Shown in pieces: positions 1 through 17,601 of a stretch of 64,000 bases of DNA. The notes under the pieces are model-generated. The model saw nothing but the letters and a program-made list of their open reading frames with translations, was not told the origin of the DNA and did not search any database. How positions within the stretch are numbered: the first letter of the stretch is position 1; every line of letters starts with the position of its first letter. The position numbers and the translations under genes were made by a program. Source of the DNA: Nitrosomonas mobilis (lineage in GTDB: Bacteria > Pseudomonadota > Gammaproteobacteria > Burkholderiales > Nitrosomonadaceae); contig NZ_FMWO01000045.1 of NCBI RefSeq assembly GCF_900103035.1, forward strand, positions 62,001 to 126,000, read 5' to 3'.

Positions 1-1000
1 GCCTTGAGAACCAGAAGATATGGCCACTCATATTTTCGAGTGGTTGTTGAGCAAAGCCATCAGCAGTGATTTGCACGACTGAAATTCTGTTTGACGGAGG
101 TATTGAATCTTCGAGTCGTTCACGTAGTGATGCTATGTCCTTCGCATCGGCAACTAATGTGATTTCTTCGTCGGTATGACCTGCATTATTCATAAAGGTT
201 GATAAACTGGCAAGTTGGTCAGAAAACCCCGCTAAAAACGCAATACTGTCTGTAGACTGCGGCAATTGACCCAGTGGGAACAGCACCGGAATCCCGGGGT
301 TGATGGAGCGGTTAATACCCTCCAGCTCAGCGGGCTTTATAATGCCACCCAAATAGCAAAAAACATCCTCGGGCAAATCCTTGGGTACGGTAAAGACCAA
401 TTGCACGATTCTGCCATGAATACCGCCGTTATCATTGAGTTCCCGAAAATACGCGTGCAGAATTTTCCGTATTAATGAAGTTACATCCAGTAACTGTCGA
501 TCGGCAGAGAGAATAACGCCAATACGCAGTGAATGATCGCTCACCCCTGGCGTGGCAGCATGATCAAGTGATTTAAGGTAACTGAATAGATTCTCGAAGT
601 CAGTATCGCTCAGATTGTAACGCGGCATCAGTGCATGCAGCGGCTTGCCCTCGCTATCTATTCCTGCCGACAAAGCACGTTTAAGGAGTGTTTTGTTATA
701 TGCCGTAAATTGCTTAGTAGGCCTGCGTACCGCTAACGACCGCCAGGTTATGGAAGGTACTGCCACACCGCCTTCAAATCCCCCTTTACCGCCGGGTTGG
801 TGGCACGACTGGCAAGGGAAGTTTTTCACATCCGCTTGAATACCACCGGCAATGGTGACCGTTGCTCCGTCAATGGCTACACCATTTTGATAGAAAGCCC
901 TTCCTTGCTGTAAATCGCCGCCGTATACAAGCAAGGACATTAGTAACGCAGGCAAAAATACCAGCAGGCTAGCTCGCTTTTTGCTGGTCGACATAATCAT
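1..1000 (-). CDS. Cytochrome c / periplasmic substrate-binding fusion protein (3' end outside window)
   Basis: The minus strand is open from an ATG at 1000 (alternative in-frame ATG at 994) to the window edge, 333 codons, so the C-terminus is missing. A signal-anchor-like hydrophobic stretch (residues 10-26) is followed by a class I cytochrome c domain with heme motif CQSCH at 63-67 and a plausible Met ligand in the segment LMPRY near 124. From about residue 158 the protein changes to a type 1 periplasmic-binding-protein fold, recognised from the strand pattern beginning RIGVILSADRQ. The start lies inside the SCO gene (32-nt overlap), which argues for cotranslation. It should be an exported electron-transfer or ligand-sensing protein; the ligand cannot be told. 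No typical ABC permease gene is visible beside it. Confidence 0.8.
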   Translation of the reverse strand, partial: MIMSTSKKRASLLVFLPALLMSLLVYGGDLQQGRAFYQNGVAIDGATVTIAGGIQADVKNFPCQSCHQPGGKGGFEGGVAVPSITWRSLAVRRPTKQFTAYNKTLLKRALSAGIDSEGKPLHALMPRYNLSDTDFENLFSYLKSLDHAATPGVSDHSLRIGVILSADRQLLDVTSLIRKILHAYFRELNDNGGIHGRIVQLVFTVPKDLPEDVFCYLGGIIKPAELEGINRSINPGIPVLFPLGQLPQSTDSIAFLAGFSDQLASLSTFMNNAGHTDEEITLVADAKDIASLRERLEDSIPPSNRISVVQITADGFAQQPLENMSGHIFWFSR

Positions 1001-1559
1001 GAATTCTATTGATTATTAAATCAGCGTTGGGAAACTGGTAGAAACTGGTCCAGTGATTATCGGTCGGATTGCCGACCAGGATAACGCTTGAATGCTCGGT
1101 TACATCGGCAGAGTACGCTCGAAGACCCAGCAATGCCTCGTTAACCGCGTTGCTGCTACCGGTTAACCACAGCCAGTTGTCTTCGTTAAAACCGTACTTC
1201 TCGGCAAAGTCACGCATTTTTTTCGGCGTGTCGAGTGCCGGATTCAAGGTCAGCGAAATCATGCGCACAGAATCTTTCAGCTCTTGAGAGTCTTCAATTT
1301 GCTTATACACCGCCCGCATGATACCGGTTGACACAGGGCACACCGTTTTGCAATCGGTGTACACAAAATTCATCACGACAATATGATTGCCCATGGCTTC
1401 GCTAACCAGCTTCATGCTACGCCGCTGAGTATCGACCATGACATGATCAAGCAGTTTGATCGAGGTGCTTTCGCCTAGCGCACCCCCCTCCGCTGCGACG
1501 CCTAAAGGTAATGAAACTGCCAGCCCAAGGCAGATTGCAAAAATAGCTTTCCGTTTCAT
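969..1559 (-). CDS. SCO1/SenC-family copper chaperone
   Basis: 196 aa with an N-terminal signal peptide (about residues 1-23) and a thioredoxin-like fold. The copper-binding motif Cys-x3-Cys is at C70/C74 (segment TDCKTVCP) and the third ligand, a conserved histidine, is H156 (segment TEHSSVI). SCO proteins load copper into cuproenzymes such as cytochrome oxidase CuA or act as thiol-disulfide reductases in the periplasm. Here the gene sits between a beta-propeller and a cytochrome-fusion gene in the same operon as a giant multicopper oxidase, so metallation of that oxidase is the likely job. That partner is inferred from context. The start overlaps the stop of the upstream gene by 4 nt. Confidence 0.88.
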   Translation of the reverse strand: MKRKAIFAICLGLAVSLPLGVAAEGGALGESTSIKLLDHVMVDTQRRSMKLVSEAMGNHIVVMNFVYTDCKTVCPVSTGIMRAVYKQIEDSQELKDSVRMISLTLNPALDTPKKMRDFAEKYGFNEDNWLWLTGSSNAVNEALLGLRAYSADVTEHSSVILVGNPTDNHWTSFYQFPNADLIINRIHDYVDQQKAS

Positions 1560-3385
1560 CGCGTCACCTCCAGGGTTTGCATCGTGTTCTGCTTGAGTCC
1601 GAATTTTAAGCTGTCAGACTGAATACCAAGCAGGTACTGTCCCTGCTCGGGAAAGGTAATCGGCGCCGATACCTCCATCTTGTGATTGGCGCGAGCGCTA
1701 ATACGCCGTTGCCAGTTCGAACCAGGTTTGAAAAATAACATCTGCACATCTGTGTTAGCGACGTAAGAATTCGTTATCAACCTGATTTTCACCTCAGCAG
1801 GTTCACCGGCTTTGTAGCTGGAGGGTGCTAACTTGATTGCGTCAACGGATGACTTGAATACCTCCGCGACCGCGGTACCTGAGCCTTCCACCTGCAACGG
1901 CATACAGGCGACGGTGAGTGGACTACTCAGGTAGAAAACCAGTTCGTAGTCACCCGGCCGCGGCACCATAGTGACGGTTTCGTACTGCCCGGGCCGTGTT
2001 TCCGCAAATGATTTGTCATGTATCAAAACCGCTAATGGCGCCGCAGTATAGACTTTGAACGCATTGGTCGGGGCCAGCATACCGTCTTCCATATAGAGGA
2101 ACAGGGTTTTATCGGCAGGGTTATTGACGATGACAGCGCCTCCTTCGGGTAGCGGCACGATCATGGGCAAGTCAGCACTCTGCTTTCCGGGTGGCGTCAC
2201 TCCAAACGAAACCTCAATCAATGCCGGGGGCTCGGAGTCACTGAGAGAATTCAGATTGATTAACGAGACGCGCGCCGAGGTGGTGTGGTGCAGATATGCG
2301 AATTGCTCGGAAAACACCAGTTGATCGAATTCGTGCTCAAACAGCAGGTAGTGAATGACCTGATTTATTGCGGTATCGATGATGATGAGCTGCTTTTGCG
2401 CTGTATCCAGTGCGATTAGCCAATGGCCGTCCGGCGTGATGTGAATTTTTTCAGGCACGCCTTGCAGTGCGACGGTAGTAATTTCAGTATCCCGGCCCGG
2501 GTACAACGTAGTGATGGTTTGCTGATCGTGGCTGCCAAAATATAATCTGTCCGCATGCGCTGAATATGCGATGTCCGATAACTGCCGTGGTACTTTGCGC
2601 CGCCAGAGAGTGACCAGAGAGACGGTGTCTACGGCGATTAATTCGCCGTCATCGGGAGAATACGCCCACAGTCTTTCCCTTTCAGAACTGAGTGCCAACA
2701 GTATCGCATTAGATTTGAGCGGGACTGTCTGTAGCAGTTGGCGTGTGTCGGTATCGACAATCATCAGCGCTTGTTGCCCTGCAATCCAAAGCAGGTTGTC
2801 ATTATCAATGGCTACTATTTTTTTAGGTGCGACAGGCAAGGCAATCGTTGCGAGTACGTTACCATTAAGCGCACTGACGATGCCTAGTTGACGAGACTTC
2901 GGCTGGCTTAGGAAAATCTCGCCGGTCGTCTGATTCAGGTGCCAGTCCGTCACCGGTGATTCGAGTTTCCGTAGCGCCAGAAGATTAGCGCTGGCGAGAT
3001 TAAGCCGTGGGTCCATCACACCTACCGAATTGTCTTCGTTTAACGTGATAAAACTATAGCTATTCAGATCGATATCGCGCGATGAATTCGGCCCCACCGT
3101 TAAATAATTTCTGACCGCATCCTTGCAGTCTGGCTGACCAGCCAGCCGCGGTCTTATCCACGCCCCCGGATGCAAGCCGGAGACAGCGCCATCATCGTAC
3201 TTGCCGGTAATATTGAAACTGATTTTTGCGGCTTCACCGGCCACGATTGGAGATTCCGTTGTTGTCAAGTTGTTGGTGGCGCGTGCGCTCATCTGAATGT
3301 CAAGATTGCTTTCCGCCGCCGCGTGTGTAGTGTTGCCGGCCATGCAAACCAGTAACACAATTGGGGGGATCGCTCTGCAAAACAC
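1556..3385 (-). CDS. Secreted YVTN-type beta-propeller protein
   Basis: About 609 aa if started at the GTG at 3385, which lies 2 nt after the stop of the oxidase gene, has a purine-rich stretch upstream and leaves a clean signal peptide (hydrophobic core then THAAAES). A longer ATG start at 3433 would overlap the oxidase gene and spoil the signal peptide. Residues about 30-110 form an Ig-like domain, followed by roughly 300 residues of beta-propeller blades of the YVTN/YncE kind (phrases such as VDTDTRQLLQTV and IIDTAINQVIHYL), and a C-terminal beta-sandwich. No catalytic motif is seen. It is probably a periplasmic or surface scaffold of the oxidase operon. Function is inferred from position only. 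Confidence 0.75.
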   Translation of the reverse strand: MFCRAIPPIVLLVCMAGNTTHAAAESNLDIQMSARATNNLTTTESPIVAGEAAKISFNITGKYDDGAVSGLHPGAWIRPRLAGQPDCKDAVRNYLTVGPNSSRDIDLNSYSFITLNEDNSVGVMDPRLNLASANLLALRKLESPVTDWHLNQTTGEIFLSQPKSRQLGIVSALNGNVLATIALPVAPKKIVAIDNDNLLWIAGQQALMIVDTDTRQLLQTVPLKSNAILLALSSERERLWAYSPDDGELIAVDTVSLVTLWRRKVPRQLSDIAYSAHADRLYFGSHDQQTITTLYPGRDTEITTVALQGVPEKIHITPDGHWLIALDTAQKQLIIIDTAINQVIHYLLFEHEFDQLVFSEQFAYLHHTTSARVSLINLNSLSDSEPPALIEVSFGVTPPGKQSADLPMIVPLPEGGAVIVNNPADKTLFLYMEDGMLAPTNAFKVYTAAPLAVLIHDKSFAETRPGQYETVTMVPRPGDYELVFYLSSPLTVACMPLQVEGSGTAVAEVFKSSVDAIKLAPSSYKAGEPAEVKIRLITNSYVANTDVQMLFFKPGSNWQRRISARANHKMEVSAPITFPEQGQYLLGIQSDSLKFGLKQNTMQTLEVTR

Positions 3386-3387
3386 AG

Positions 3388-6300
3388 TTAGTTCTCTTTC
3401 ACTTCGAAGATTCCCCAGGCACCGCTGGACCACATCTGGCTAGGGCCATCGCGATATTGCCACAAGCCCGAATGGGCCGAATCGATTCGGGCAGTGATGG
3501 CTTTACCGACGCTGATCAATGGTGCATGCGGTGAGCCAAATTCCGGTAGCATGTCAGGAAAGTCATGGCCGTAGACCAGAAAAGCCCGTTGCCGTGCGCG
3601 GCCGCTCGGCTGCAGTACTCGAAAGCGTACTTCTTCACCGGCATTAGCGACAAATCGTGGTGTCGCGACAGGCTTGTATGTTTCAAGGAAAAAATCGGTG
3701 GGAAAGAAGGCACCATTCAGTTCCGGCAAAGCCCATCGACCACTCGCACTGTCCAGCGCCGGGCTTTGACCCAGTCTGGCCCAGAACGGCTCGGTTGTGT
3801 AATTCAGCCCTTTCTCTCCCAGATCATAGGAGTCATCGCAAATCAGGCAATCGGGAATCGGGTGACTGTTATCCTTGCCGTCGCCCTGATAATGCAGGTT
3901 TAGCCCGTCACGATAGAAGACGACAAACTCACGAAACCGCTGCTTGTCAGCATAGCTGATATCGGCCCGTATGCCGCAGCCAATATGCAACGCCGTGCGT
4001 TCGCTGTCTTCGTCGCCTGCGACGTCGATACAGGTATAACTGGCGTTTTCTGGTTCGATAATCAACCCGCCGATCAGGCCATGTGTGGGATGATTAATGA
4101 CATCTCCCAGTGAGATGAGATTGCTTGCGCCTAATTCGCGAGGCTGCGCCTTCATGCATTTCTCGTTGGTGTTATCTTCGCAGGTCTTGAGGCTAACGGT
4201 GCCCGCATACCAGTGATAGTGGCTAGGAGCGCATACAGCGCGGTCGTCAGGGTCGCAGACCTGTAATGAAGGGGCCATAACAGCGCTGTTCCAACCCACG
4301 CTACTGCCATCATTTTGATCCACCGTATAGAACACTTTCTGTGCATGCATCGACACCTGGCTGGAAGGTTTCACATCGCCCGCTCCGGCGTTTTTTTGCT
4401 CGACGGTTTGATCCACATTGAGCGGTACAATCTTCGGCATCAATGCATCTCCGGGGGCATCCTGCATGTCTTCCGGTAGCATATTAAACAGCGCCACACG
4501 CACGCACTGGCCGGCATTTGCGCGCAGCACAAGGGGCTCCAGAGGATGATCGTTGTAATAGGACTTCAAGCTGTTCAGCTTCTGTGTTGCATAGTCTCGC
4601 GCACCGGCAGAATGCGCCACATAATCCTCGGCTTCACCATTACCTACCTGTTCTGGCGTGTAACGTTCCAGCACAACAAAGGCAAGGCTGTCTGGGTCAG
4701 AAATACGCTCACGGTATTTACTTTCGCGTCCCAGCCAGTCGCCGACATCCACTGCTGCTACGGAATAGTGAACGGTGGGCGCATCTTGCGGACAACTATA
4801 CTCGGTGTTTTTGTTGAATTCCTTAAAGCTTTCTCTATCAACGTTCAGTATCTCTGCGCCGCTACCATCGGCCCTGTGTTTCGCCAGCGGGCTTAAACAG
4901 GTCTTCAGACCGGCCTGGTTCAGGGGTCCGTCACATTCGAGTTTGTCGAACAGCGCCTGACACTTGGTCATATTGCGCGTATCAGCACATTCATCCAGGT
5001 TATAGGAAGAAACCGAGCGGATCAGGCCCCAGGCACCGTTCCAGATATCGTCGACCGACCCGAAGTTATACAGATAATCGGTAAACAGATCGCCGCGCAG
5101 TATGGTGTCGAGACCCAGCTGCATTTCAAAGTGTTCCGAGATGCCGACTTCCTGGGCACTGACCAACACGGTGTCTTTATCTTCCTTATCCTTGCCGATC
5201 TCGCGCGACCAGACCTGGCCATTGATATTGATGCTATGTTGTACTTCCTGCGCCCCCTGAATAAGCCGCAGCTGCGCTTTTTCCCCCTCATAGCCTGCAA
5301 ATACCGGCGTTGCCGGGTCACCATGCACACGCGAACTAAAGACATTGGCCATATCGCCCCTGGGTCCGTCACGTTGCTGCTTGACGCTGTCAGAGGCGCA
5401 TTTCCCTTTAGATTTATCGTCATCCAGACGCTTGCAGCCAATGCGCAGCGGGACCGGTTCGTGTTTGTAATTAACCAGATAGGGGTTGTGATGGTCCTTG
5501 GAAATAGCTTCGGGTAGCATGGGTGGATCCACGGGTCGTCCGTGTTTACCGTGCAGGACGGCATAGTGCTCGTTCAGATCGGGCAATACCGAATTAAGTG
5601 CTTTCAGCTCGGCGGTGATTTTCCCGGCAAATGCTGCATTGCCGGCGCTGTTGGCTGCTTGCGCTTGTTTTTGCAAATTATCCGCAGCAGATTGAAAATT
5701 CTCCGCGCCGGAATCCGGTCGCGAGCTGCCGTCGTACAGTAGTGCGAAATCGGCTATTGCCATGGCGAATTCACGATAATCCTCTTCGCCGCCCGCATCA
5801 CCCATATGAATGATCATGGCCTCCGACCCCACCGCCTGTTCCGGCATTTCCGTGCCGTCCCGGGTCAGGAATTTCGAATCGCGCGGTTCCACCAACAGGG
5901 CTGCGTAAAAGCCGTGTTGCTGTATCGACGAAGGCCCAAAATGGTCATGGGTGAAAACAGTACGTATCGTCCGGTCTTTGCAGGACGCAGAATTCCAGAT
6001 CGCCTTGCGCTTATCTGTTGCGTCAGGGTCATTATTGTCAATGGTTGCTAATTCGTCGAGGCAGGCCTGCTCGGTGGTCAGCAACGGGTCAGCATACCAG
6101 CGCTGAGTGGTCGTCTGGAAAACACCGTCTTGTTTGGCAAGGGTGACTGGCGCACCGTCGACATCCGTCGCGCTACCCTCCGGGTGATTGGCAGCGTCGA
6201 TAAGATGGTCGAGTTCTTCCTTGGCGAAGGTACCGTCTTCGTAGTTAAAGCCGTTGCCCGATCCATCGGAGGCGGTGACGTCGAATTTCACCAGATGAAT

Positions 6301-8799
6301 ATGTTGACCGATTGTATCGGTCGGCGTGCGCACCTGAAAATCATCCAGATCAAGCTCGGTCGGGGTGCGATTGGTATGCTTGAAATCGATGCAGTCACCA
6401 GAATTGGCGCGGAAGAAGAACGGCTCAGCTTTGTCTGTTTGCTTGTTTTCGAACGCGCTGACATCACTGTCCAGCACATTGATACGTGCCTGCGGATCGT
6501 GCCAGCCGGCTTTGTTCACGACCAGGTCGGTTTGAATGGCCGACACCTTATACTGACGCGTGTACTTTTTGCTAAACTCCCAGGCATCACCTGTGCAAGG
6601 ATCGGCAAAAGGCGCGCCAGCGACCGGAGGTTTATCATTGACAACATAGTCAGCGGCAACACCCTCCGGCGTTTTGCTGGCGTGACTACCTTGTGAATGA
6701 AACGTCATGGCGCTTTTTTCAAGCACGGTACCATCTTCCGGCAGCACCTTGATATCTGCCGTTTCAATGTGTGAAGTAAAATCTCCAGTGCGTAAGGCGT
6801 GCGCGACTAATTCATCCGGCGAGAGGCCGGCCGCTTCCGCAGCCGTTAAGCCAGACACGCCTCTTGTGCCACCGGTAACTACATGCCGGCCCAGTCCCGC
6901 TGCTTCGGCAACATCGTATGGCGCCTGAGGTGCGCGTTGCCCGCTCTTTCCGGCGATATAAAATGGATAGCCAGGCATCGCATTCTCGCCGGCGACGTCG
7001 GTGTAAGTCGGCGTTGGCGGCATGGCTTGCTTTGGCAACGGCACAATGGCTGGAATTGGTGTGCCAGACTCCGGATTGGAAATACCGCTGACCAAATCGG
7101 TACCTGTGCCCAGTTCCCCATCAGGCAATCGGCGGGTGCCGTCTTCCAGTACATCATGCACACGCCACAAAGCCCACATGCCCTGCGCGAAATGTGGGTA
7201 CAGATGGCAATGAAAAATCGAGTCGCCCGGCGTCTTGTTGCGGTTACCGCTGCCGCCGTAGTAAATCGGGTAGCTGAATCCCTGTTGCGGCGCAACCGTT
7301 TGCGAGTCCAGATAGGTACCGGTATCGGATTGCTGCGACAGCCACTGATGGGCGTGCAGGTGAAAAACATGCGTTTCCTTCGGACCGGCATGTAGATTAC
7401 GAAACTCTACCCGGTCATTCAGATAGGAATGGTGGACGTTGGACGGGTCGTCTGCAAAGTTTGCTAATAGTGCCGGGTCACCATTAGCCCATGATTCCAG
7501 AAAGAATTCTTCATACGCGCAGTTCACGCAGTTCTTTGCCGGACCAATTTTTTTTCGATTGGCAAGCAATAAAGTTCCCATGCCGCTGGCGCCGTAGTTG
7601 ATCGCAAACCCATCGCCAATACCGGACAGGGTAAACTCGGTTGCCAGCTCTTTGAACTGGTCTGCATAAAACGTTTTTAACTCATCATGAAATACGACGG
7701 TAAATTCCCTGAAGGCGGGATTGTCATGCCCTTCTGCAGAAGTTTTTTCAACGATAATCGCGTTTAGATCGCCGTGCACCAACTCATGGCGATTGTCAGC
7801 CAGCGGTTTTAACAGCGCCAATATGGGCGTATCATCAGCCGCCGTTGCCTGATAATTTAAATAGGCATCACCTTGGCTCTGCTCGCGGGCTTGCTGGAGA
7901 GCCATGTGATCAACCTGACTGCGGTACCACTCGCTACCTTCTGGTTCTATATTGAGCACGCCAAACAAACCATGTACCAGGCTGCCACCGTCGCCCTCAC
8001 CGCCCGCCGGTGCACCGTGACTAAAGAATAAATGAGTGGATCGTCTTTGCCGTTCATCCTCAGTCAGGTCAATTTGCCATGCGTAATCTATTGTCGCGCC
8101 GGGAGGAATGGGTTGCAGGCCAGTCACCAGAGGGTCATGGGCATCCCCGATTGGCGTGACACCTGAAATAGTGATCGAAGCGCAGCGGGTACGCGGCCAG
8201 TTGTCACTGCCTTTTTCACCCACCGACTTGTGATCCGACCCACAACCGGTTGTGGCGGCATCACCCTCAATGGCTGGTGGATGTACTTCAACCTCAGCTG
8301 CCAATGCCACGTTGTCTTCGACCTCGGTTTTACCGATGCTGGAATACGTTAACCCGAGTCCGGTGTCGGGTATTGGGGTATCCGGGCTGCTTGAGTCAGG
8401 CTGATTGGGCATAAGCATATTGTAAAACTTGACTTCCAGCCGATCGCCGGAATTTGCTCTGAGCACCAGTGGACGAGGGCGTTTGTCATTGCGTAAACGA
8501 ACGTGACCTGGTTTCGTCTCTGCCGACATAGGCATGCATTCTTCCTCGTCGCCAACCTGGGAACATTTGTCAGTATCTACCACGTCGCGTTTGAGAGCAT
8601 ACATCATGCCGTATGGGTTGTAGGAGCCAAAGCGGTTGTAGGTGATTGGCTGGTCCAAAGCAACTACCTCTGCAAAGAGAACGCGCCTCGCAGGCGGAGA
8701 AGTCGGCGCGTCGCTGTTTTTCTCAAGCAAATCGCAGGCAGGCAGAATGCAGGTAGAAAGTGCAAGCAGAATATAGTTAAAATAACTCTTGTTCATCAT
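3388..8799 (-). CDS. Giant multicopper oxidase lipoprotein, MofA-like
   Basis: 1803 aa. The N-terminus carries a lipobox (LPAC, Cys22), so it should be an outer-membrane-anchored lipoprotein. Several cupredoxin-type domains are visible. Copper motifs: SHG at 260-262 with VHG at 275-277; HVFHLHAHQW at 477-486; the type 1 copper motif HCHLYPHFAQGM with H530, C531, H532, H536 and M541; GQHIH at 831-835; HDH at 951-953 with QQHG at 960-963; SHYHWYAG at 1526-1533; and HPTHG near 1570. Only one complete HCH triad is present. The length greatly exceeds laccase or CopA (450-650 aa) and is in the range of the Leptothrix putative Mn(II) oxidase MofA. Possible substrates are Mn(II), Fe(II), Cu(I) or phenols; sequence alone does not decide. 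The ATG at 8799 follows a GGGGCG stretch. An SCO chaperone and a cytochrome follow in the operon. Confidence 0.88.
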   Translation of the reverse strand: MMNKSYFNYILLALSTCILPACDLLEKNSDAPTSPPARRVLFAEVVALDQPITYNRFGSYNPYGMMYALKRDVVDTDKCSQVGDEEECMPMSAETKPGHVRLRNDKRPRPLVLRANSGDRLEVKFYNMLMPNQPDSSSPDTPIPDTGLGLTYSSIGKTEVEDNVALAAEVEVHPPAIEGDAATTGCGSDHKSVGEKGSDNWPRTRCASITISGVTPIGDAHDPLVTGLQPIPPGATIDYAWQIDLTEDERQRRSTHLFFSHGAPAGGEGDGGSLVHGLFGVLNIEPEGSEWYRSQVDHMALQQAREQSQGDAYLNYQATAADDTPILALLKPLADNRHELVHGDLNAIIVEKTSAEGHDNPAFREFTVVFHDELKTFYADQFKELATEFTLSGIGDGFAINYGASGMGTLLLANRKKIGPAKNCVNCAYEEFFLESWANGDPALLANFADDPSNVHHSYLNDRVEFRNLHAGPKETHVFHLHAHQWLSQQSDTGTYLDSQTVAPQQGFSYPIYYGGSGNRNKTPGDSIFHCHLYPHFAQGMWALWRVHDVLEDGTRRLPDGELGTGTDLVSGISNPESGTPIPAIVPLPKQAMPPTPTYTDVAGENAMPGYPFYIAGKSGQRAPQAPYDVAEAAGLGRHVVTGGTRGVSGLTAAEAAGLSPDELVAHALRTGDFTSHIETADIKVLPEDGTVLEKSAMTFHSQGSHASKTPEGVAADYVVNDKPPVAGAPFADPCTGDAWEFSKKYTRQYKVSAIQTDLVVNKAGWHDPQARINVLDSDVSAFENKQTDKAEPFFFRANSGDCIDFKHTNRTPTELDLDDFQVRTPTDTIGQHIHLVKFDVTASDGSGNGFNYEDGTFAKEELDHLIDAANHPEGSATDVDGAPVTLAKQDGVFQTTTQRWYADPLLTTEQACLDELATIDNNDPDATDKRKAIWNSASCKDRTIRTVFTHDHFGPSSIQQHGFYAALLVEPRDSKFLTRDGTEMPEQAVGSEAMIIHMGDAGGEEDYREFAMAIADFALLYDGSSRPDSGAENFQSAADNLQKQAQAANSAGNAAFAGKITAELKALNSVLPDLNEHYAVLHGKHGRPVDPPMLPEAISKDHHNPYLVNYKHEPVPLRIGCKRLDDDKSKGKCASDSVKQQRDGPRGDMANVFSSRVHGDPATPVFAGYEGEKAQLRLIQGAQEVQHSININGQVWSREIGKDKEDKDTVLVSAQEVGISEHFEMQLGLDTILRGDLFTDYLYNFGSVDDIWNGAWGLIRSVSSYNLDECADTRNMTKCQALFDKLECDGPLNQAGLKTCLSPLAKHRADGSGAEILNVDRESFKEFNKNTEYSCPQDAPTVHYSVAAVDVGDWLGRESKYRERISDPDSLAFVVLERYTPEQVGNGEAEDYVAHSAGARDYATQKLNSLKSYYNDHPLEPLVLRANAGQCVRVALFNMLPEDMQDAPGDALMPKIVPLNVDQTVEQKNAGAGDVKPSSQVSMHAQKVFYTVDQNDGSSVGWNSAVMAPSLQVCDPDDRAVCAPSHYHWYAGTVSLKTCEDNTNEKCMKAQPRELGASNLISLGDVINHPTHGLIGGLIIEPENASYTCIDVAGDEDSERTALHIGCGIRADISYADKQRFREFVVFYRDGLNLHYQGDGKDNSHPIPDCLICDDSYDLGEKGLNYTTEPFWARLGQSPALDSASGRWALPELNGAFFPTDFFLETYKPVATPRFVANAGEEVRFRVLQPSGRARQRAFLVYGHDFPDMLPEFGSPHAPLISVGKAITARIDSAHSGLWQYRDGPSQMWSSGAWGIFEVKEN

Positions 8800-8847
8800 T
8801 CGCCCCGTTACGTTATCAAGTATTCTCGATTTTTCGGTCTGCTAAAC

Positions 8848-9486
8848 TCAGCTATTAACCTCAACGCTATCCAGCAGTAGCATTGACGGTCGGCAATGGC
8901 TATTGGTCTGCGCGAATGCACCCGTCGACACAATCCAGTAAAGCGTACCCGAGAAGTTTTGTTGCGGTTGCCAACAGGAAACTTGCCAGCAAATGTTCTG
9001 CCGTGAGCTATCGGGAATGTTTTTTGATTGACCGAGAACCGTGGTGTAGGTTGGTGTCGCGTTGGCGAAGTCCCCAGCGCTACCTGGGTCATCCTGATCA
9101 TAAGCCACAAATAATGCGAAGCTATTGAAGCAAATCGATGTGTGTGACTCTAGCGGCAGAAACGCCCAGATAAACCGCAGCTCGCTGTTGGCCGACAGAT
9201 TGACGTCTCTGCACTCCAGAATCGAACCATCGATTCCAATGGTGCTTAACACTGAAAAGAAACTGGTGTCGCACGGGTCAGGAAAACCGTTGCCAGTAGG
9301 TCTGCCGGTCACCGGGTCGAATGCAGGGTCATCGAGTACGACAATATTTCCACCCTGTAGCGGCTTAAAAGTGGTGGCAGGAACACCCCCGTCATAATCG
9401 ATGCCAGCCAGACACTGGCCGCGCCCATGCAAGATGTAGCCATCAAAGGCATTTTGAAAGAAACGATTGTTCGCTAGTAAAGGCAT
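8848..9486 (-). CDS. Hypothetical protein leading the multicopper oxidase operon
   Basis: 212 aa if started at the ATG at 9486, which has a textbook AAGGAGG seven bases upstream; an upstream in-frame ATG at 9582 would start inside the promoter. I do not recognise the family. There is no signal peptide or membrane segment. The protein contains seven cysteines, several in the second half (segment CWQVSCWQPQ), a Gly/Asp/Pro-rich N-terminal third and a likely beta-rich remainder. Its gene is first in the operon, 48 nt before the giant oxidase, so it is probably coexpressed with it. It could be a cytoplasmic maturation factor or a protein exported by an unknown route. Confidence 0.7.
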   Translation of the reverse strand: MPLLANNRFFQNAFDGYILHGRGQCLAGIDYDGGVPATTFKPLQGGNIVVLDDPAFDPVTGRPTGNGFPDPCDTSFFSVLSTIGIDGSILECRDVNLSANSELRFIWAFLPLESHTSICFNSFALFVAYDQDDPGSAGDFANATPTYTTVLGQSKNIPDSSRQNICWQVSCWQPQQNFSGTLYWIVSTGAFAQTNSHCRPSMLLLDSVEVNS

Positions 9487-9553
9487 TGCAATTACCTCCT
9501 TGAACATAAGCATTGGGCATAGGAGAAATGCACCACTTATCCCACGAGCATTA

Positions 9554-9582
9554 AATGTACAGAGATCTAGCTCAACTGTCAA
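9554..9582 (-). promoter_or_regulatory. Sigma70-like promoter of the multicopper oxidase operon
   Basis: On the minus strand a consensus -35 box TTGACA (9582-9577) is followed after exactly 17 bases by TACATT (9559-9554). Transcription would begin near 9547, giving an approximately 60-nt leader before the ATG at 9486. It is the only strong promoter-like site seen upstream of the five-gene run. Confidence 0.6.
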
Positions 9583-9691: not shown

Positions 9692-10224
9692 GGTTCTGTC
9701 GCATTTAGCAAGATCATCGATACATTCGATATAACGTGCTGACCATTAAGGAGATGGTGCTGCTACATGCCTATTGTAAAAAGATGCGGTTTCCGATTGA
9801 GGTAATTCTGGTTTGTATCCGTTGGTACGCAGCGTATCCGTTAAGTTGCCGACACCTGGAAGAAATGATGGAGAAGCGTGGTGCCAATCAAGCAGCTATT
9901 GATTAGATCATCAAGAATAATGACACTTCTATTGTCGTCAGGCAGGTCAAATACCTCAACAATATCGCGGTACAAGACCACTTGGGTAGTGAAGCGAATA
10001 ACAAAACTAATGCTCGGATTCAAATCTTTTCAATCAGCTAAAAATACCCTGTCTGGCATAACCCATGCACATGACTTGCAAAGGTCAGTCGATGATGGAA
10101 GGAGCTGACAAGATGTCTTTTGTTAAACGATTTTATGCTCTGGTTAGATAATCGCGTCAAGACCAACTGTACGCTTGATAAGACCAACCAGATATCAGCT
10201 TTCTTTCGTTAATGCGACAGAACT
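9692..10224 (+). mobile_element. Degenerate IS6-family insertion sequence
   Basis: The ends are defined by an inverted repeat: 13 bases, GTTCTGTCGCATT, at 9693-9705 match the reverse complement at 10211-10223, a sequence much like IS6-family termini. The element is 533 bp, against roughly 800 bp for intact members, so part of the middle has been lost. No flanking target duplication is visible. It separates the oxidase operon from the IS5 relic. Confidence 0.7.
9754..10151 (+). pseudogene. IS6-family transposase remnant
   Basis: The first part, from the ATG at 9754, encodes a typical IS6 transposase N-terminus (segments VILVCIRWYAAYPLS and HLEEMMEKRG). It then hits a stop at 9903. The C-terminal signature VKYLNNIAVQDH is readable from about 9935, and the next conserved piece, MLGFKSFQSAKNTL, continues in another frame. 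The final FYALVR ends at the stop at 10151. The catalytic DDE core between the two halves is missing. It cannot make a working enzyme. Confidence 0.75.
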
Positions 10225-10775
10225 CAATAATTCTGTTGCAGCTGAAGTCTTTTTTGCGGATGCGTGTCACGACGCGCTTGATGATATAGATAAGGCTGAG
10301 CAAGCCTATTTGTACTTTCGCTCTTGCACAGCCGATGGTGCGAATAGAGATTGCACTTATTTCATCTGTCATCGAGCCAAATACATGCTCAACCCGCGCG
10401 CGCCTGCGATCTCTCCTTGCTGCTTTGCTTCTGTGCTGCTGTGAGCGGATAATTACGCGCACCCTTTTCATGAATGTGGCTTTTGTGCCCGATTGCAATC
10501 AGGTTTTCTTTCTGCGTATGGCTGCGATAGACCGAGTCCGCGTAAACATCCGCTCCATCCATTGCAGGGGATTGCAACACGTCTACCGGAATCCGGCTGT
10601 CATGGACTTGTGCTGAAGTTATCTCCCCTGCGGCGATCAACTTGGTCTCCCGATTAACATTAGCATGATTCTTGTAACCATGGAACTGCTCGGTGCTCTT
10701 CTTCGACATGGTCCTGGCATCAGGCACGACTCCCGCCAAATCAAGGACCTGTCCCTTTTCTGTGCTAACGCGTAT
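10157..10775 (-). pseudogene. Frameshifted IS5-family transposase fragment
   Basis: The minus strand encodes the middle and C-terminal part of an IS5-type DDE transposase in two overlapping frames. One frame (to about 10389) has FHGYKNHANVNRETKLI and the AEITSAQVHDS-like region; the second (from about 10498 down to 10157) has RRARVEHVFGSM, the region of the catalytic glutamate, then an IIKR-type ending. The N-terminal third is absent and the fragment stops just short of rnk. The frame change near 10440 could in principle be programmed, but the missing N-terminus makes this a relic. Its 3' end runs into the IS6 terminal repeat. Confidence 0.7.
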
Positions 10776-12991: not shown

Positions 12992-14212
12992 TTAAAAGAA
13001 TTTAGACAATCTTAAGGTAACAAAATTATCCTGCCTGAAGAAAGACACTGGATTCTTAGGAGCTTCTTCAAAAAATGCCTGCCCGATAAATTCGATTTTC
13101 AAGTCCTCACCGAAACGACGCTCAGCTTCAACACGCAAGGTTGCTGGCCCATCCTCAATATCAGTTACAAAACCGGCGAGAACAGATGAAGCCTGAACGT
13201 CATTAAAGGCGAGGCGCGTACCCAGAAAAATATCCTTGTCATAAATTGTAGGAAAAATTTGATTGTCTCGAATGTCATTAAAGCTCAGCTTATCCCGGCC
13301 GTCATACAGTCCTTCCACAATGAGACCAAGATCAACATCACTTTCGGCAACCTGGAAGAAGGTGTACTCCAATCCGGCTACCACCGCAGCAAAAGTATCA
13401 CCCTGACCTTCACGGACGATACCTTCAAACTTCCAAAGCCAGGCATCGTGAGTCAATTGAAGATCAATGCCAGCCTGGGTAATTAAGGTGTAATGGGGTG
13501 TAAAACTCTGGCTGTCAGCCGATAAAACAAGAGAAGGTTCGCGATTGATGCCGCGAAAGACATGTAACCCCAGATCAAAATCACCAAAAAAATGGGAATA
13601 ACGCAAGGCGACATCGGGGTGCCACTGTTCAGCACTATTACCATAAACAGCATCTCCTGTTTTAACAGGAAGCGGCGTTCTAAGCCGTCCATCGCGTCCC
13701 GGAAAGGTTCGTTCACGAAATCCTGTCATTAAAAAGACATCAAATCGACCGAAATCAGACTGATGGCCCACCTGCACCATGGGTTGGCCAAGAAAATCTT
13801 CTTCATCGATGTCTTCAACAGCATCAATCTGATTGATGATATTAACCAGATGACGGGATTCTGTCACCCCCCAGAATATACGCGTGGCGCCTACCAAAAA
13901 CTCCCATTTACCCGCAATTTTTCGCCAATTTGCCTCCCGGATATCAAAATGAGTACGTTTATCATCTGCGGCATCTACGCGAATGAAGGGCGTAAATTTT
14001 AACAATGAATCGCGGTCTGCATTACGCCAGCGAAATTCTGGTTCGAGAAAGCTTGAGAACTGCACACCTTCGACCTGACCAGGCCATAATGATGCTTCAG
14101 GAAACCCACGCAGCTCTAAAGCAGCTTGACCGCTAAAGTCGAACGATTGTGCCGAAACCACAGACAACTTGAAAAGAAACAAAGCAGCAAGTGCCTTGAT
14201 TAAAATAAGCAT
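12992..14212 (-). CDS. Outer-membrane beta-barrel protein (DUF1302-like)
   Basis: 406 aa from the ATG at 14212, preceded by GAAAGG; a longer TTG start (14233) is less likely. A signal peptide ends at VVSAQ. The rest is an alternating amphipathic beta pattern with a C-terminal aromatic residue (ending RLSKFF), the mark of a BamA-inserted barrel. It follows, in transcription order, an RND pump gene and a LolA-like gene, with a gap of about 180 bases. Together they suggest an export route from inner to outer membrane; the barrel would be the outer-membrane end. The substrate is unknown. Porin or fatty-acid/sterol uptake roles are alternatives. Confidence 0.72.
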   Translation of the reverse strand: MLILIKALAALFLFKLSVVSAQSFDFSGQAALELRGFPEASLWPGQVEGVQFSSFLEPEFRWRNADRDSLLKFTPFIRVDAADDKRTHFDIREANWRKIAGKWEFLVGATRIFWGVTESRHLVNIINQIDAVEDIDEEDFLGQPMVQVGHQSDFGRFDVFLMTGFRERTFPGRDGRLRTPLPVKTGDAVYGNSAEQWHPDVALRYSHFFGDFDLGLHVFRGINREPSLVLSADSQSFTPHYTLITQAGIDLQLTHDAWLWKFEGIVREGQGDTFAAVVAGLEYTFFQVAESDVDLGLIVEGLYDGRDKLSFNDIRDNQIFPTIYDKDIFLGTRLAFNDVQASSVLAGFVTDIEDGPATLRVEAERRFGEDLKIEFIGQAFFEEAPKNPVSFFRQDNFVTLRLSKFF

Positions 14213-14396
14213 TGATACAATAACCTTTCGCAATTTTTCATGACACTTGCCAATCTAACGTTCTCTAACGCTGGCGCGACAGCGCACCCCTGACGAAATC
14301 TCCGTCGCCGAGGCCTACATTAAATTCATATGCCTTGAAAAAAAGGTCCGTGCTTTTACCCGTTTGATGATTTTCCATGCGCCACACATGTGCCCG

Positions 14397-15089
14397 TCAG
14401 TATTTGTCATCATAAAGTTGATAATCTTCAAACAGCTGGGTTTTCAGCAGGCTGCCTTTGCGATCGTAATATTCAATCTTGCGCGCTTGATAATCAGTCT
14501 GATCAACCCATCCAATTTGCCGTGTATAACCAGAATCTTTATAAAGTGGACGCCGCTCGACAACATCACAGGTCAGCTCTCCACACGCTTCTTCACGCAA
14601 CCAGGTATATTCATATTTCTCAAGCTCCTGACCGGTAATATCTTCAAAAGCAAATTCTGAACCGACAAATGGGCCCGATTTGTTTTTTGATGAAATACGC
14701 TTCACGCGTTTTAGCGCTGGCAGATAAAGCCACTGATCGTCCGGGTCCAATATTTTCGCGTAAGAAAGTAACGCCGTACTTTCAATATCTGCGGGCGAGA
14801 AAAAAACAATCAGATTTTTATCTCCGACGGACTCATCCGGAAGTTCTAGAGTTGACTGCTCAAGCACACGTCGAGATTCTGCACCTGAGGCATTTTTCAG
14901 CACCATTTCAAGCTCTACACGGCTGTTATTAAAGCCTCGATCTGAGCGGTCGGAGCGCGCAGCAATATCAAATCCTTTTTGATCGAGATCTTCTGCAACA
15001 ACGGGTAGCGCAAAGCTTACCAACATGAAAGCGCCCGTTAAAATCCTATGGTTAAGGTTAAATTGTTTGTGTTTTTTCAGTATTAGCAT
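14397..15089 (-). CDS. Outer-membrane lipoprotein-sorting (LolA-like) periplasmic protein
   Basis: 230 aa. The signal peptide ends near VVAED. The mature part has the LolA/LolB-like fold of the TP_0789-type family: SRRVLEQSTLELPDE, LIVFFSPADI, YLPALKRVKRIS and FAFEDITGQE are its hallmark segments. Members bind lipids or hydrophobic molecules and are typically coded beside MMPL/RND pumps, as here. The start overlaps the pump gene's end by 32 nt and has AAGGAG six bases upstream. It probably carries the pump's substrate through the periplasm; the cargo is unknown. Confidence 0.82.
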   Translation of the reverse strand: MLILKKHKQFNLNHRILTGAFMLVSFALPVVAEDLDQKGFDIAARSDRSDRGFNNSRVELEMVLKNASGAESRRVLEQSTLELPDESVGDKNLIVFFSPADIESTALLSYAKILDPDDQWLYLPALKRVKRISSKNKSGPFVGSEFAFEDITGQELEKYEYTWLREEACGELTCDVVERRPLYKDSGYTRQIGWVDQTDYQARKIEYYDRKGSLLKTQLFEDYQLYDDKY

Positions 15090-17442
15090 ATGAAGCTCCT
15101 TTTGTTTTAGATTGGGCGCGTAACATTAAAAGCGCTGGTAACAACAACAGATCTACAACCAAGGCGATAAGAATGGCGAGTGCTGTCAGCGTTCCCATAT
15201 CACCCGTAATCTTGAATGATGAAAACATGAGCACACTAAAGCCAAACGCCAGAATCAGCGCATTCGCCACAACGGCAGCCCCGACGGTATCAAAGGTGTA
15301 GCGAATCGCGTCCTCAATGGAGAGTACCAATTCTTCACGAGCACGCTGGTATTTCGTCAGGATATGGACCGTGTTGTCGACGATAATACCGAGAGAAGTG
15401 GCGGATACTGTCGCTGCAGCCATGCCCACTTCTCCCACTAACAATGCCCATACGCCGAAGGTCATAATGAGTGGTGCAATATTTGGAATCAAACTGAGAA
15501 GTCCAAAACTGAAGCTCCTCAACGCGATCATCATGACAATGGAAATCAAAATAACGGCGACGATGTTGCCGCCAATCATGTCTTGTATATTGCGCTCAGA
15601 GATAAAGGAAAACAGATAGGTTGCGCCAGTGCCATATACTTCATTCCCCGGTGAACGGGAATCCCACCAGGCATCGATATCTTTTAGGAATTGCCGCGTC
15701 TCTCCTGTCGTAATTTCATCCAGCGTAACTGAAACCCGGGTTGATGATTTGTCAATGTCTATGCGGTCATTTAAGTCCAATCCATATGGTAATGACAACT
15801 CATAGAGCAGCAGATATTGTGCAGCCAGCTCGCGTTCGCCGGGAATATGATAATAGGCCGGGTCATCGGCATTCATATTTTTACTCAGCCGCTTGATGAT
15901 GTCCGTATATGAATAAACATGGCGTACTTTTGCATATTCCCGTAGCCAGATCGCAAAGTCATCCAGGTCTTGCAGATATTTAGGCTCACTAATGGCACCA
16001 GGTGCCCCAGCAGGTACTGAGTATTCCAGAATATAAAGCCCTGTCAGATGATTGATAGCAAACTTCGCATCACCACGAAATTCCACCCTATCATCAAAGT
16101 ATTCAACCCATTGATCATTCAGATTAATTGTTGGTATGGCACAAGCTAGCCCGATAAAAATAAGACCCACAAAAACCAGTGTAGCGCGTGCGCGTGCAAT
16201 AACGAACTCGGCAAGTTTGTTAATTGCCTCCTGCAGCGGACCTCGGGATTTATCTGAGTAGGTTTGCACACTGAAAGGTAGAATCGCTAACAATGCTGGC
16301 AAAAATGTAAGCGAATAAAACCAGGCGGCTGTAATCCCGAAGGCTGCAATATTTCCCAGAGCATTGAATGGTGGCGCATCGGAAAAATTAAGCGCTAAAA
16401 AACCGATAACCGTCGTTAAACTGGTAATTGAAACAGCCAGGAAATTAACGCGCATACTTTCCTTGATGGCCGCAATTTTGTCATCGCCTACACGCATGCG
16501 TTGTGCCATCGTGATCAATATATGAATAGAGTCCACAATCGCGAGTGTTAGGATCACAACCGGCGCGCTGCCCGAGAATGGCGAAATGGTGATGCCTGCC
16601 CAGCCCGCAAAACCCATCGCAGCAATTGTTGCAAATGTAATAACAAGTACAGTCGAAATGACACCAGAAAAGTTCCGTATGATTAACCATGTGATAAGGA
16701 CCAGCACCAAAAACATCGGCCCATAGAGCGTTTCTGCATCATTGATTGTAGCCTCAAAAAAAGCAGCATTGAGCGCCGATATTCCCGTGAGGGCGATCTT
16801 CAGGTCGGGATATTCCTGTTCGAATTCGGATACAAGTGCGCGTGCAAAATGAATGGCTTCTGGCAGCTCACTCTCACTGAGCCCCGGGTATTGCAACGTT
16901 ACATTGATACCTGATGCGCCACGATCAAGTGCGACAAGACTACCGGCAAGTAAGGGCTCTTTAAGCGCGATGTCAACCCGCTTGGCTATTTCTGCCTGCG
17001 AAAGATTGGCTGCATCTTCAATCAAGTCTTCTACAATTAAATCGTCATCTATTGCATAGGTATGTTGAAAATTCGTGATTGAATCGACCCGTATCGCGAA
17101 TGGAACCATCCAAGCGCGTGCGGTTAATGCTTCAATGGCTTGGGCAACAAACGGTTGATCAATCGTGCCTGACTTCGGTTTAACGACAAAAAGAAAATTG
17201 TCGTTTTTTGTATATGTCTCCTCAAACTTCTCAAATGTAAGCAAATCAGGATTTTTATCGCTAAAAAAGACTCGATAATTATGTGAAGCCTGAATTTGCA
17301 TCAATCCAGCAGCGAGAACAAAAAAGACAGTAATTGCGAAAAAAATTGTCTTCAGACGATTTTTAATGACGAATTCCGCCCATTGAAGTGCAAAACGATC
17401 AGTTTTGTTTAATTGTTTGGTTTCGTTTCTAATGACAGTCAC
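15058..17442 (-). CDS. RND-superfamily (MMPL-type) exporter
   Basis: 794 aa from a GTG at 17442, chosen because GGAGG sits five bases upstream; an ATG at 17454 overlaps that ribosome binding site. The protein has the twofold RND layout: one transmembrane helix, a periplasmic loop, five helices, then the same again. Tell-tale segments are TLAIVDSIHILITMAQRMR in the first half and TSLGIIVDNTVHILTKYQ in the second, carrying the proton-relay acidic residues. It is shorter than AcrB (about 1050 aa) and of the size of MMPL/HpnN-like lipid exporters. Followed by the LolA-like and barrel genes, it likely powers export of a lipid or hydrophobic compound. Confidence 0.85.
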   Translation of the reverse strand: MTVIRNETKQLNKTDRFALQWAEFVIKNRLKTIFFAITVFFVLAAGLMQIQASHNYRVFFSDKNPDLLTFEKFEETYTKNDNFLFVVKPKSGTIDQPFVAQAIEALTARAWMVPFAIRVDSITNFQHTYAIDDDLIVEDLIEDAANLSQAEIAKRVDIALKEPLLAGSLVALDRGASGINVTLQYPGLSESELPEAIHFARALVSEFEQEYPDLKIALTGISALNAAFFEATINDAETLYGPMFLVLVLITWLIIRNFSGVISTVLVITFATIAAMGFAGWAGITISPFSGSAPVVILTLAIVDSIHILITMAQRMRVGDDKIAAIKESMRVNFLAVSITSLTTVIGFLALNFSDAPPFNALGNIAAFGITAAWFYSLTFLPALLAILPFSVQTYSDKSRGPLQEAINKLAEFVIARARATLVFVGLIFIGLACAIPTINLNDQWVEYFDDRVEFRGDAKFAINHLTGLYILEYSVPAGAPGAISEPKYLQDLDDFAIWLREYAKVRHVYSYTDIIKRLSKNMNADDPAYYHIPGERELAAQYLLLYELSLPYGLDLNDRIDIDKSSTRVSVTLDEITTGETRQFLKDIDAWWDSRSPGNEVYGTGATYLFSFISERNIQDMIGGNIVAVILISIVMMIALRSFSFGLLSLIPNIAPLIMTFGVWALLVGEVGMAAATVSATSLGIIVDNTVHILTKYQRAREELVLSIEDAIRYTFDTVGAAVVANALILAFGFSVLMFSSFKITGDMGTLTALAILIALVVDLLLLPALLMLRAQSKTKGASYANTEKTQTI

Positions 17443-17601
17443 TGCAACCTCCATTTAAGATCATATGATCTTTTATCGTCAAAAAATTTTTAAAATTTGT
17501 GGCAAGTACAAGTACTAAATATTTGTAATGGATGCCAATTGATTCAAATACTGGATCTATCTATATCAACACGTATTTAAACAAACAAGGCTCAATTCGC
17601 G

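Follow-up and report, generated by a model that had tools for sequence, protein, structure and literature searches.

What is a gene cluster that closely resembles a manganese-oxidation operon doing in the genome of an ammonia oxidiser? The question is raised by five open reading frames, here called genes A to E, which lie within the first 9.5 kb of the 64,000-nucleotide stretch that we analysed (the window; G000:C14:62001-126000, part of a 3.08-Mb assembly with a completeness of 99.85 and a contamination of 0.1), all on the minus strand and free of internal stops. Read in the direction of transcription, these are gene A (8848..9486; 212 aa), the giant gene B (3388..8799; 1803 aa), gene C (1556..3385), gene D (969..1559; 196 aa) and gene E (2..1000), the last of which is cut by the window edge and encodes 490 aa where it is whole in the contig (L002:11528-13000). 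The arrangement and spacings given in a preliminary description of this DNA were reproduced: 48 nt separate A from B and 2 nt separate B from C, whereas C and D overlap by 4 nt and D and E by 32 nt. The B/C value holds with a gene C start at the GTG at 3385; the first start proposed by the ORF caller, the GTG at 3433, would give a 46-nt overlap with gene B. This spacing suggests that genes A to E are transcribed as one unit. A strong ribosome-binding site, AGGAGG (9495..9500, minus strand), precedes gene A, and a sigma-70-like candidate promoter, TTGACA-17-TACATT (9554..9582, minus strand), lies about 68 nt before it, matching the consensus at 10 of 12 positions in a scan that overall ran at chance level (13 sites found, 11.0 expected). 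The terminator scan, taken overall, was also nearly at chance level.

The identity of the host follows from its genes for ammonia oxidation. Its genome contains two matches to the AMO family (amoA), and the open reading frames around one of them are presumably amoC and amoB. A comparison of the host amoC with eight genomes gave matches in seven: full-length copies from three genomes of the same genus and from two MAGs named Nitrosomonas share 90-92% identity with it, and the single long match from N. europaea ATCC 25978 shares 72%. The amo cluster and these identities together indicate an ammonia oxidiser of the Nitrosomonas group. A siroheme synthase gene that flanks the operon is more similar to its counterparts in five Nitrosomonas-group genomes (62-65% identity) than to those of Methylomonas (58%) and Nitrospira (48%), so the contig as a whole does not look foreign.

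Judged by its sequence, gene B is a multicopper oxidase of the MnxG/MofA family with intact copper motifs, in agreement with the preliminary description. MnxG is the sole NCBIfam family that it matches (E 1.4e-209), homology to MnxG and to MofA-like proteins runs over nearly its full length, and a search of the PDB returned Bacillus MnxG (9bxa) at E 3.6e-101 as against 7e-5 for a small laccase. A Cu-oxidase_2 match falls just under its Pfam cut-off, and no CopA, CueO or ferroxidase family was reported for the protein among the Pfam and NCBIfam profiles. An identity as CopA or a laccase, which the preliminary description had named as the grouping that would speak against metal oxidation, can thus be ruled out. 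So can the status of a strict MnxG equivalog, because the score of 698.7 bits is far from the whole-protein cut-off of at least 3100 bits that NCBI sets for that model (NF041487). Four copper motifs, all on the minus strand, lie at residues 477-482 (HVFHLH, 7354..7371), 530-541 (HCHxxxHxxxxM, 7177..7212), 833-835 (HIH, 6295..6303) and 951-953 (HDH, 5941..5949). We take HVFHLH to supply type 1/2/3 ligands and HCHxxxHxxxxM type 3/type 1 ligands, and on this assignment the type 1, 2 and 3 motifs are complete. All four patterns are kept in 94 of 96 family members, a set made up of open reading frames of more than 1100 aa that score more than 150 bits against the window's protein, plus ten Pseudomonas-type sequences; the two exceptions are a gene truncated at its 5' end and a sequence with a different letter at a non-ligand position. 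Bacillus MnxG (9bxa) is homologous to gene B and shares the same four motif regions, but it has Ala in place of the second type 1 histidine of HCHxxxHxxxxM, which gene B and its relatives retain. The Bacillus Mnx complex, as described in PMC5622069, consists of MnxE, MnxF and MnxG, and neither an MnxE nor an MnxF family was named in the Pfam and NCBIfam profile matches of the five proteins. The gene B product is probably a lipoprotein: a lipobox-like L-P-A-C follows the leader at residues 19-22, and a comparable site is found near the start in five of seven relatives inspected.

The partner genes add a copper chaperone, a propeller and a cytochrome. Gene D belongs to the SCO family (SCO1/SenC; PF02630, E 5e-17), as had been proposed, and carries the CxxxC copper site as CKTVC at residues 70-74 (1338..1352, minus strand), a pattern that in the form used matched 51 of 64 D-family open reading frames. 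For gene E, which had been described as a fusion of a cytochrome c with a binding protein, the cytochrome part is borne out by PF00034 (E 8e-6) and by a single haem site, CQSCH (800..814, minus strand), whose CXXCH pattern is kept in 49 of 50 family members; the binding half is seen by Pfam (Peripla_BP_6, 8e-15) in the homologue of genome G034 only, and not in the window's own protein. Sequence-profile matches of gene C are weak, and the claim of a secreted propeller draws its support from an AlphaFold2 model built on a 42-row alignment (pLDDT 88.8), for which a YVTN propeller is the top PDB match; from our own reading of the strand pattern, the model looks like a propeller placed between two beta domains. 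Gene A stands apart in having no leader by hydrophobicity (0.66, compared with 2.3-2.8 for genes B to E). Its product is modelled as a beta sandwich (pLDDT 82), with carbohydrate-binding (CBM) and MAM-like modules as the best fold matches; at E ~1e-4 and TM values mostly of 0.3-0.6, these only suggest a fold class.

Which known system does this cluster resemble most closely? The preliminary description had pointed to MofA of Leptothrix, and this view stands for the oxidase sequence and fails for gene content. We compared the oxidases of L. discophora CCM 2812, in place of MofA from strain SS-1, and "MofA-like" is our own label for them. The two oxidases of this strain are each ~46% identical to gene B over ~1040-1050 aa, whereas Pseudomonas MnxG is 28% identical; by sequence, gene B is accordingly nearer to the Leptothrix proteins, one of which scores 738.6 bits against the MnxG profile, where gene B reaches 698.7. 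Unlike in the window, the propeller-SCO-SCO-cytochrome genes (C-D-D-E) at the first Leptothrix locus are divergent from the oxidase gene, and the second locus has no propeller, SCO or cytochrome genes in the 16 kb read. In the mof operon as outlined in PMC8218464, mofB (mip/FKBP) and mofC stand beside the oxidase gene, an arrangement that is not seen at the window's operon; profile searches reported no FKBP/mofB family among the five proteins. Identity with the mof operon is ruled out by the missing FKBP family and by the differing arrangement in L. discophora.

By gene content, the closest known system is instead the mnxG operon of Pseudomonas putida. In strain GB-1, this operon comprises mnxG, a YVTN propeller, two SCO1/SenC genes, a fusion of an ABC-binding protein with cytochrome c, and SurA (PMC11409713, Table 4; also PMC8218464). 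The window shares with it the order oxidase-propeller-SCO-cytochrome/binding fusion, the copper motifs and a fusion protein with one haem. It differs in having one SCO gene, no SurA and the extra gene A in front; gene E is followed by a flavodoxin-like open reading frame on the other strand. It also differs in an oxidase that stays below the MnxG cut-off. The Pseudomonas operon is associated with a sigma-54 promoter and with control by MnxS/MnxR; in the window, the sigma-54 pattern TGGC-N7-TGCW occurs nine times, compared with 7.9 expected, and never just upstream of gene A. For comparison, MnxG lies above the NCBI cut-off in 79 of 249 Pseudomonas-type genomes (of a genus taken for Pseudomonas from its PrrF RNA), with scores of 3795-3937 bits for unsplit copies, and genes C, D and E lie downstream in nine of the ten such loci read, the exception being L140. 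Another relative is the large multicopper oxidase of N. europaea (NP_840402.1, 1886 aa, in the appendix of PMC3600357), which we found in strain ATCC 25978 as an open reading frame of 1887 aa (L042). It comes from the same organism group, has gene A in front and is 45% identical to gene B, but 8.9 kb downstream contain no C, D or E, and the oxidase sits on a separate branch of the tree.

Does the cluster hold together elsewhere? The preliminary description had treated unlinked genes in relatives as evidence against its reading, and the core genes turn out to be linked in many of them. Among 37 genomes of the same genus, the host's own included, eight (again counting the host) have a close relative of gene B, at E 1.1e-43 or better. 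Besides the window, B-C-D-E is found in G034, G006, G013 and G024, while G025 has B-C before its contig ends. Genes C, D and E are all missing from the sequence read after gene B in the two A-B genomes, G030 (8.9 kb) and G010 (13 kb). In a wider set, formed by the best 80 of at least 556 confirmed gene B relatives, 60 named loci extend at least 5.5 kb 3' of gene B; this stretch contains C in 51 loci, D in 41 loci, E in 38 and the full trio in 38, and nine have none, two of which (L084 and L105) carry the C-D-E set on the opposite side of the oxidase gene. Within the same best 80, gene A precedes B in 18 of the 71 loci that have at least 0.8 kb upstream, and seven show the exact set A-B-C-D-E (L047, L049, L052, L057, L060, L068 and L078), in Novosphingobium, Thiocapsa, Competibacteraceae, Sphingomonas and Aurantiacibacter. 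The same families with the same partners also occur in Myxococcota, Acidobacteriota, Sphingomonadaceae and Paracoccus. The open reading frames of these comparison loci are mechanical calls with unchecked starts, so their gap lengths mean little, and what recurs is the order oxidase-propeller-SCO-cytochrome, which does so more than by chance. Some copies follow it incompletely in the stretches read: N. europaea and the Nitrospira nearest to gene B have A-B without C-D-E, and Methylomonas has A-B-C only, which implies that C-D-E is not essential for the function of those oxidases.

Some further observations concern the distribution of such enzymes. Two genus-mates (L034 and L035, from G004 and G015) have oxidases of 1566-1574 aa of a more distant type, whose surroundings, read over 10.7 and 12.3 kb, contain none of genes A, C, D and E. 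Open frames of 917-954 aa with a multicopper oxidase match occur in 21 of 36 genus-mates; at E 0.001, the window's own genome gave no second multicopper oxidase match. A phylum-wide search for MnxG matched four of 398 genomes, the host included, none of them over the cut-off, and none of 14 control genomes; a plasmid search covered 25 records, with no Pseudomonas among them. The oxidase also occurs with a propeller in Methanoperedens (L096; C only) and in the anammox bacterium Jettenia (L107; C-D-E), organisms of anoxic settings, which is odd for an enzyme that uses O2.

How might the operon have come to reside in this genome? In a tree of the 96 oxidases, gene B groups with two Methylomonas MAGs (SH-aLRT 100) and then with four Nitrospira sequences (100); the L. 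discophora sequences share this half of the tree, on a long branch, and Pseudomonas MnxG lies in the other. One sequence that sits with Nitrospira comes from a record named uncultured Nitrosospira sp. isolate NOB2 (CAADGJ010000223.1; L073), which has no amoC match and is probably a mislabelled Nitrospira genome. A mixture-model tree of 40 rows, hand-picked from the 96, included ten Nitrosomonas-group oxidases and left out two copies, the truncated one of a Nitrosomonas MAG (L053, near N. europaea in the larger tree) and the split one of G010. On this tree, the ten require at least five host changes by parsimony; the order of G025 relative to adjacent Nitrospira rows is open, so acquisitions may number four. 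A single-clade origin of the ten is rejected by the AU test with a p value of 0.00036 that is optimistic, because the rows were hand-picked, copies were left out and the first tree had already been seen when the group was named. The oxidases of the Nitrosomonas group would then occupy at least four separate places in the family tree, with four to five acquisitions, and this distribution, like the foreign-looking G+C of most of the operon, may be a new observation. Trees of the partners took in only E proteins of 381-639 aa and C proteins of 561-759 aa; gene C is placed nearest to Methylomonas, within a starred set of three rows (97), and gene E found no supported place.

Base composition gives a mixed picture. 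The part of the operon inside the window has 52.4% G+C, the rest of the window 46.5%, with 44.8-47.8% across its stretches of 9486 bases. Within the operon, G+C falls from ~55% in gene B to a host-like 47-48% over gene E, and a 1-kb stretch ~1.5 kb beyond the 3' end reaches 53.8%; the base-composition argument for transfer is therefore not clean. A search for an empty site, made with two flanking genes in 14 genomes of the same genus, showed no insertion. The simplest reading of these data is that genes B and C were acquired by transfer, probably repeatedly within the genus. The strand of the operon also bears, about 0.7 kb upstream of it, the remains of a DDE transposase, broken into two overlapping fragments (PF13751, PF01609; window 10160-10739).

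How might the five proteins act together? We consider it fairly likely that this is a horizontally acquired operon of the mnx type, in which gene B would serve as an envelope oxidase of Mn(II). By analogy with the tested operon of P. putida, the oxidase, anchored in the envelope, would oxidise Mn(II) at its type 1 copper, pass the electrons to O2 at the trinuclear site and deposit an extracellular Mn(III)/Mn(IV) oxide. The SCO protein of gene D might load or reduce the copper sites, the propeller of gene C could be a scaffold or partner, and gene E, in which a ligand-binding domain is attached to a c-type cytochrome with one haem, may act as an electron partner or as a sensor of redox state or metal. 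Gene A would be an accessory protein specific to its clade. Without mnxG, GB-1 removes Mn about ten times more slowly, and its mnxG mcoA double mutant forms no oxide under the conditions tested there (PMC11930936). An operon-borne c-type cytochrome also fits a finding for P. putida MnB1 cited in PMC11409713, namely that cytochrome c maturation genes take part in Mn oxidation, and we would propose the conserved fusion as a candidate behind this role. The envelope metal-oxidising system of the preliminary description thus holds as far as sequence goes, with manganese or iron as its conjectural part. A core of a known kind appears here in an unexpected host.

Other activities are conceivable for such a protein. 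Multicopper oxidases are promiscuous, ceruloplasmin with its six domains is a ferroxidase, and copper and haem iron are in heavy demand in ammonia oxidisers. Gene B might hence work mainly as a ferroxidase or cuprous oxidase that protects a copper- and iron-rich envelope, any oxidation of Mn being a side activity, and precedent could be found in the six-domain oxidases with ferroxidase activity treated in PMC3600357. We regard this as unlikely, since Mn oxidation is the activity of the relative that has been tested and that shares the core gene order, and the profile searches reported none of the CopA, CueO or ferroxidase families for the protein. The grouping of gene B with proteins of methanotrophs and nitrifiers, several of the latter lacking C-D-E, could hint at a nitrogenous or organic substrate peculiar to these organisms and at no link to metals; such a substrate seems very improbable to us in view of the Myxococcota, Acidobacteriota, Sphingomonadaceae and Paracoccus, which have the same families and partners and are not known to share, as groups, a metabolism of nitrifiers or methanotrophs. 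Equally improbable is a decaying import that is no longer expressed. The foreign-looking G+C of most of the operon and the broken transposase nearby would suit such a relic, but the five reading frames are intact and keep their active-site motifs, and gene A retains a strong ribosome-binding site with a promoter-like site at a fitting place.

If manganese oxidation by this operon, which we favour, is real, then nitrifiers would deposit manganese oxides as well, a single cell would connect the cycles of nitrogen and manganese, and the finding would bear on filters that remove ammonium and manganese together (PMC12070406). Putative MnxG in Nitrosomonadaceae is reported in PMC11995701, and no member of these nitrifier families is known to oxidise Mn; in literature drawn mostly from outside the subscription journals, we found no account of the complete operon in a nitrifier, or of independent origins inside Nitrosomonas. 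A bolder proposal would be that Mn oxidation benefits the ammonia oxidisers of one genus, which for this reason acquired genes for Mn(II) oxidases on at least four separate occasions, with gene E of the present organism feeding electrons from the Mn(II)-oxidising complex into the pool of c-type cytochromes and yielding energy or redox protection from manganese; we hold this to be decidedly unlikely.

Further genes were noted in the surroundings of the operon. In the window at 12995-17454, an MMPL-type exporter adjoins a LolA-like protein, and the 413-aa open reading frame at 12995-14233 matched no Pfam family at E 0.001. Roughly 5 kb beyond the 3' end of the operon, on the other strand, lies a gene for an alginate-export porin (PF13372; L002:5170-6660).
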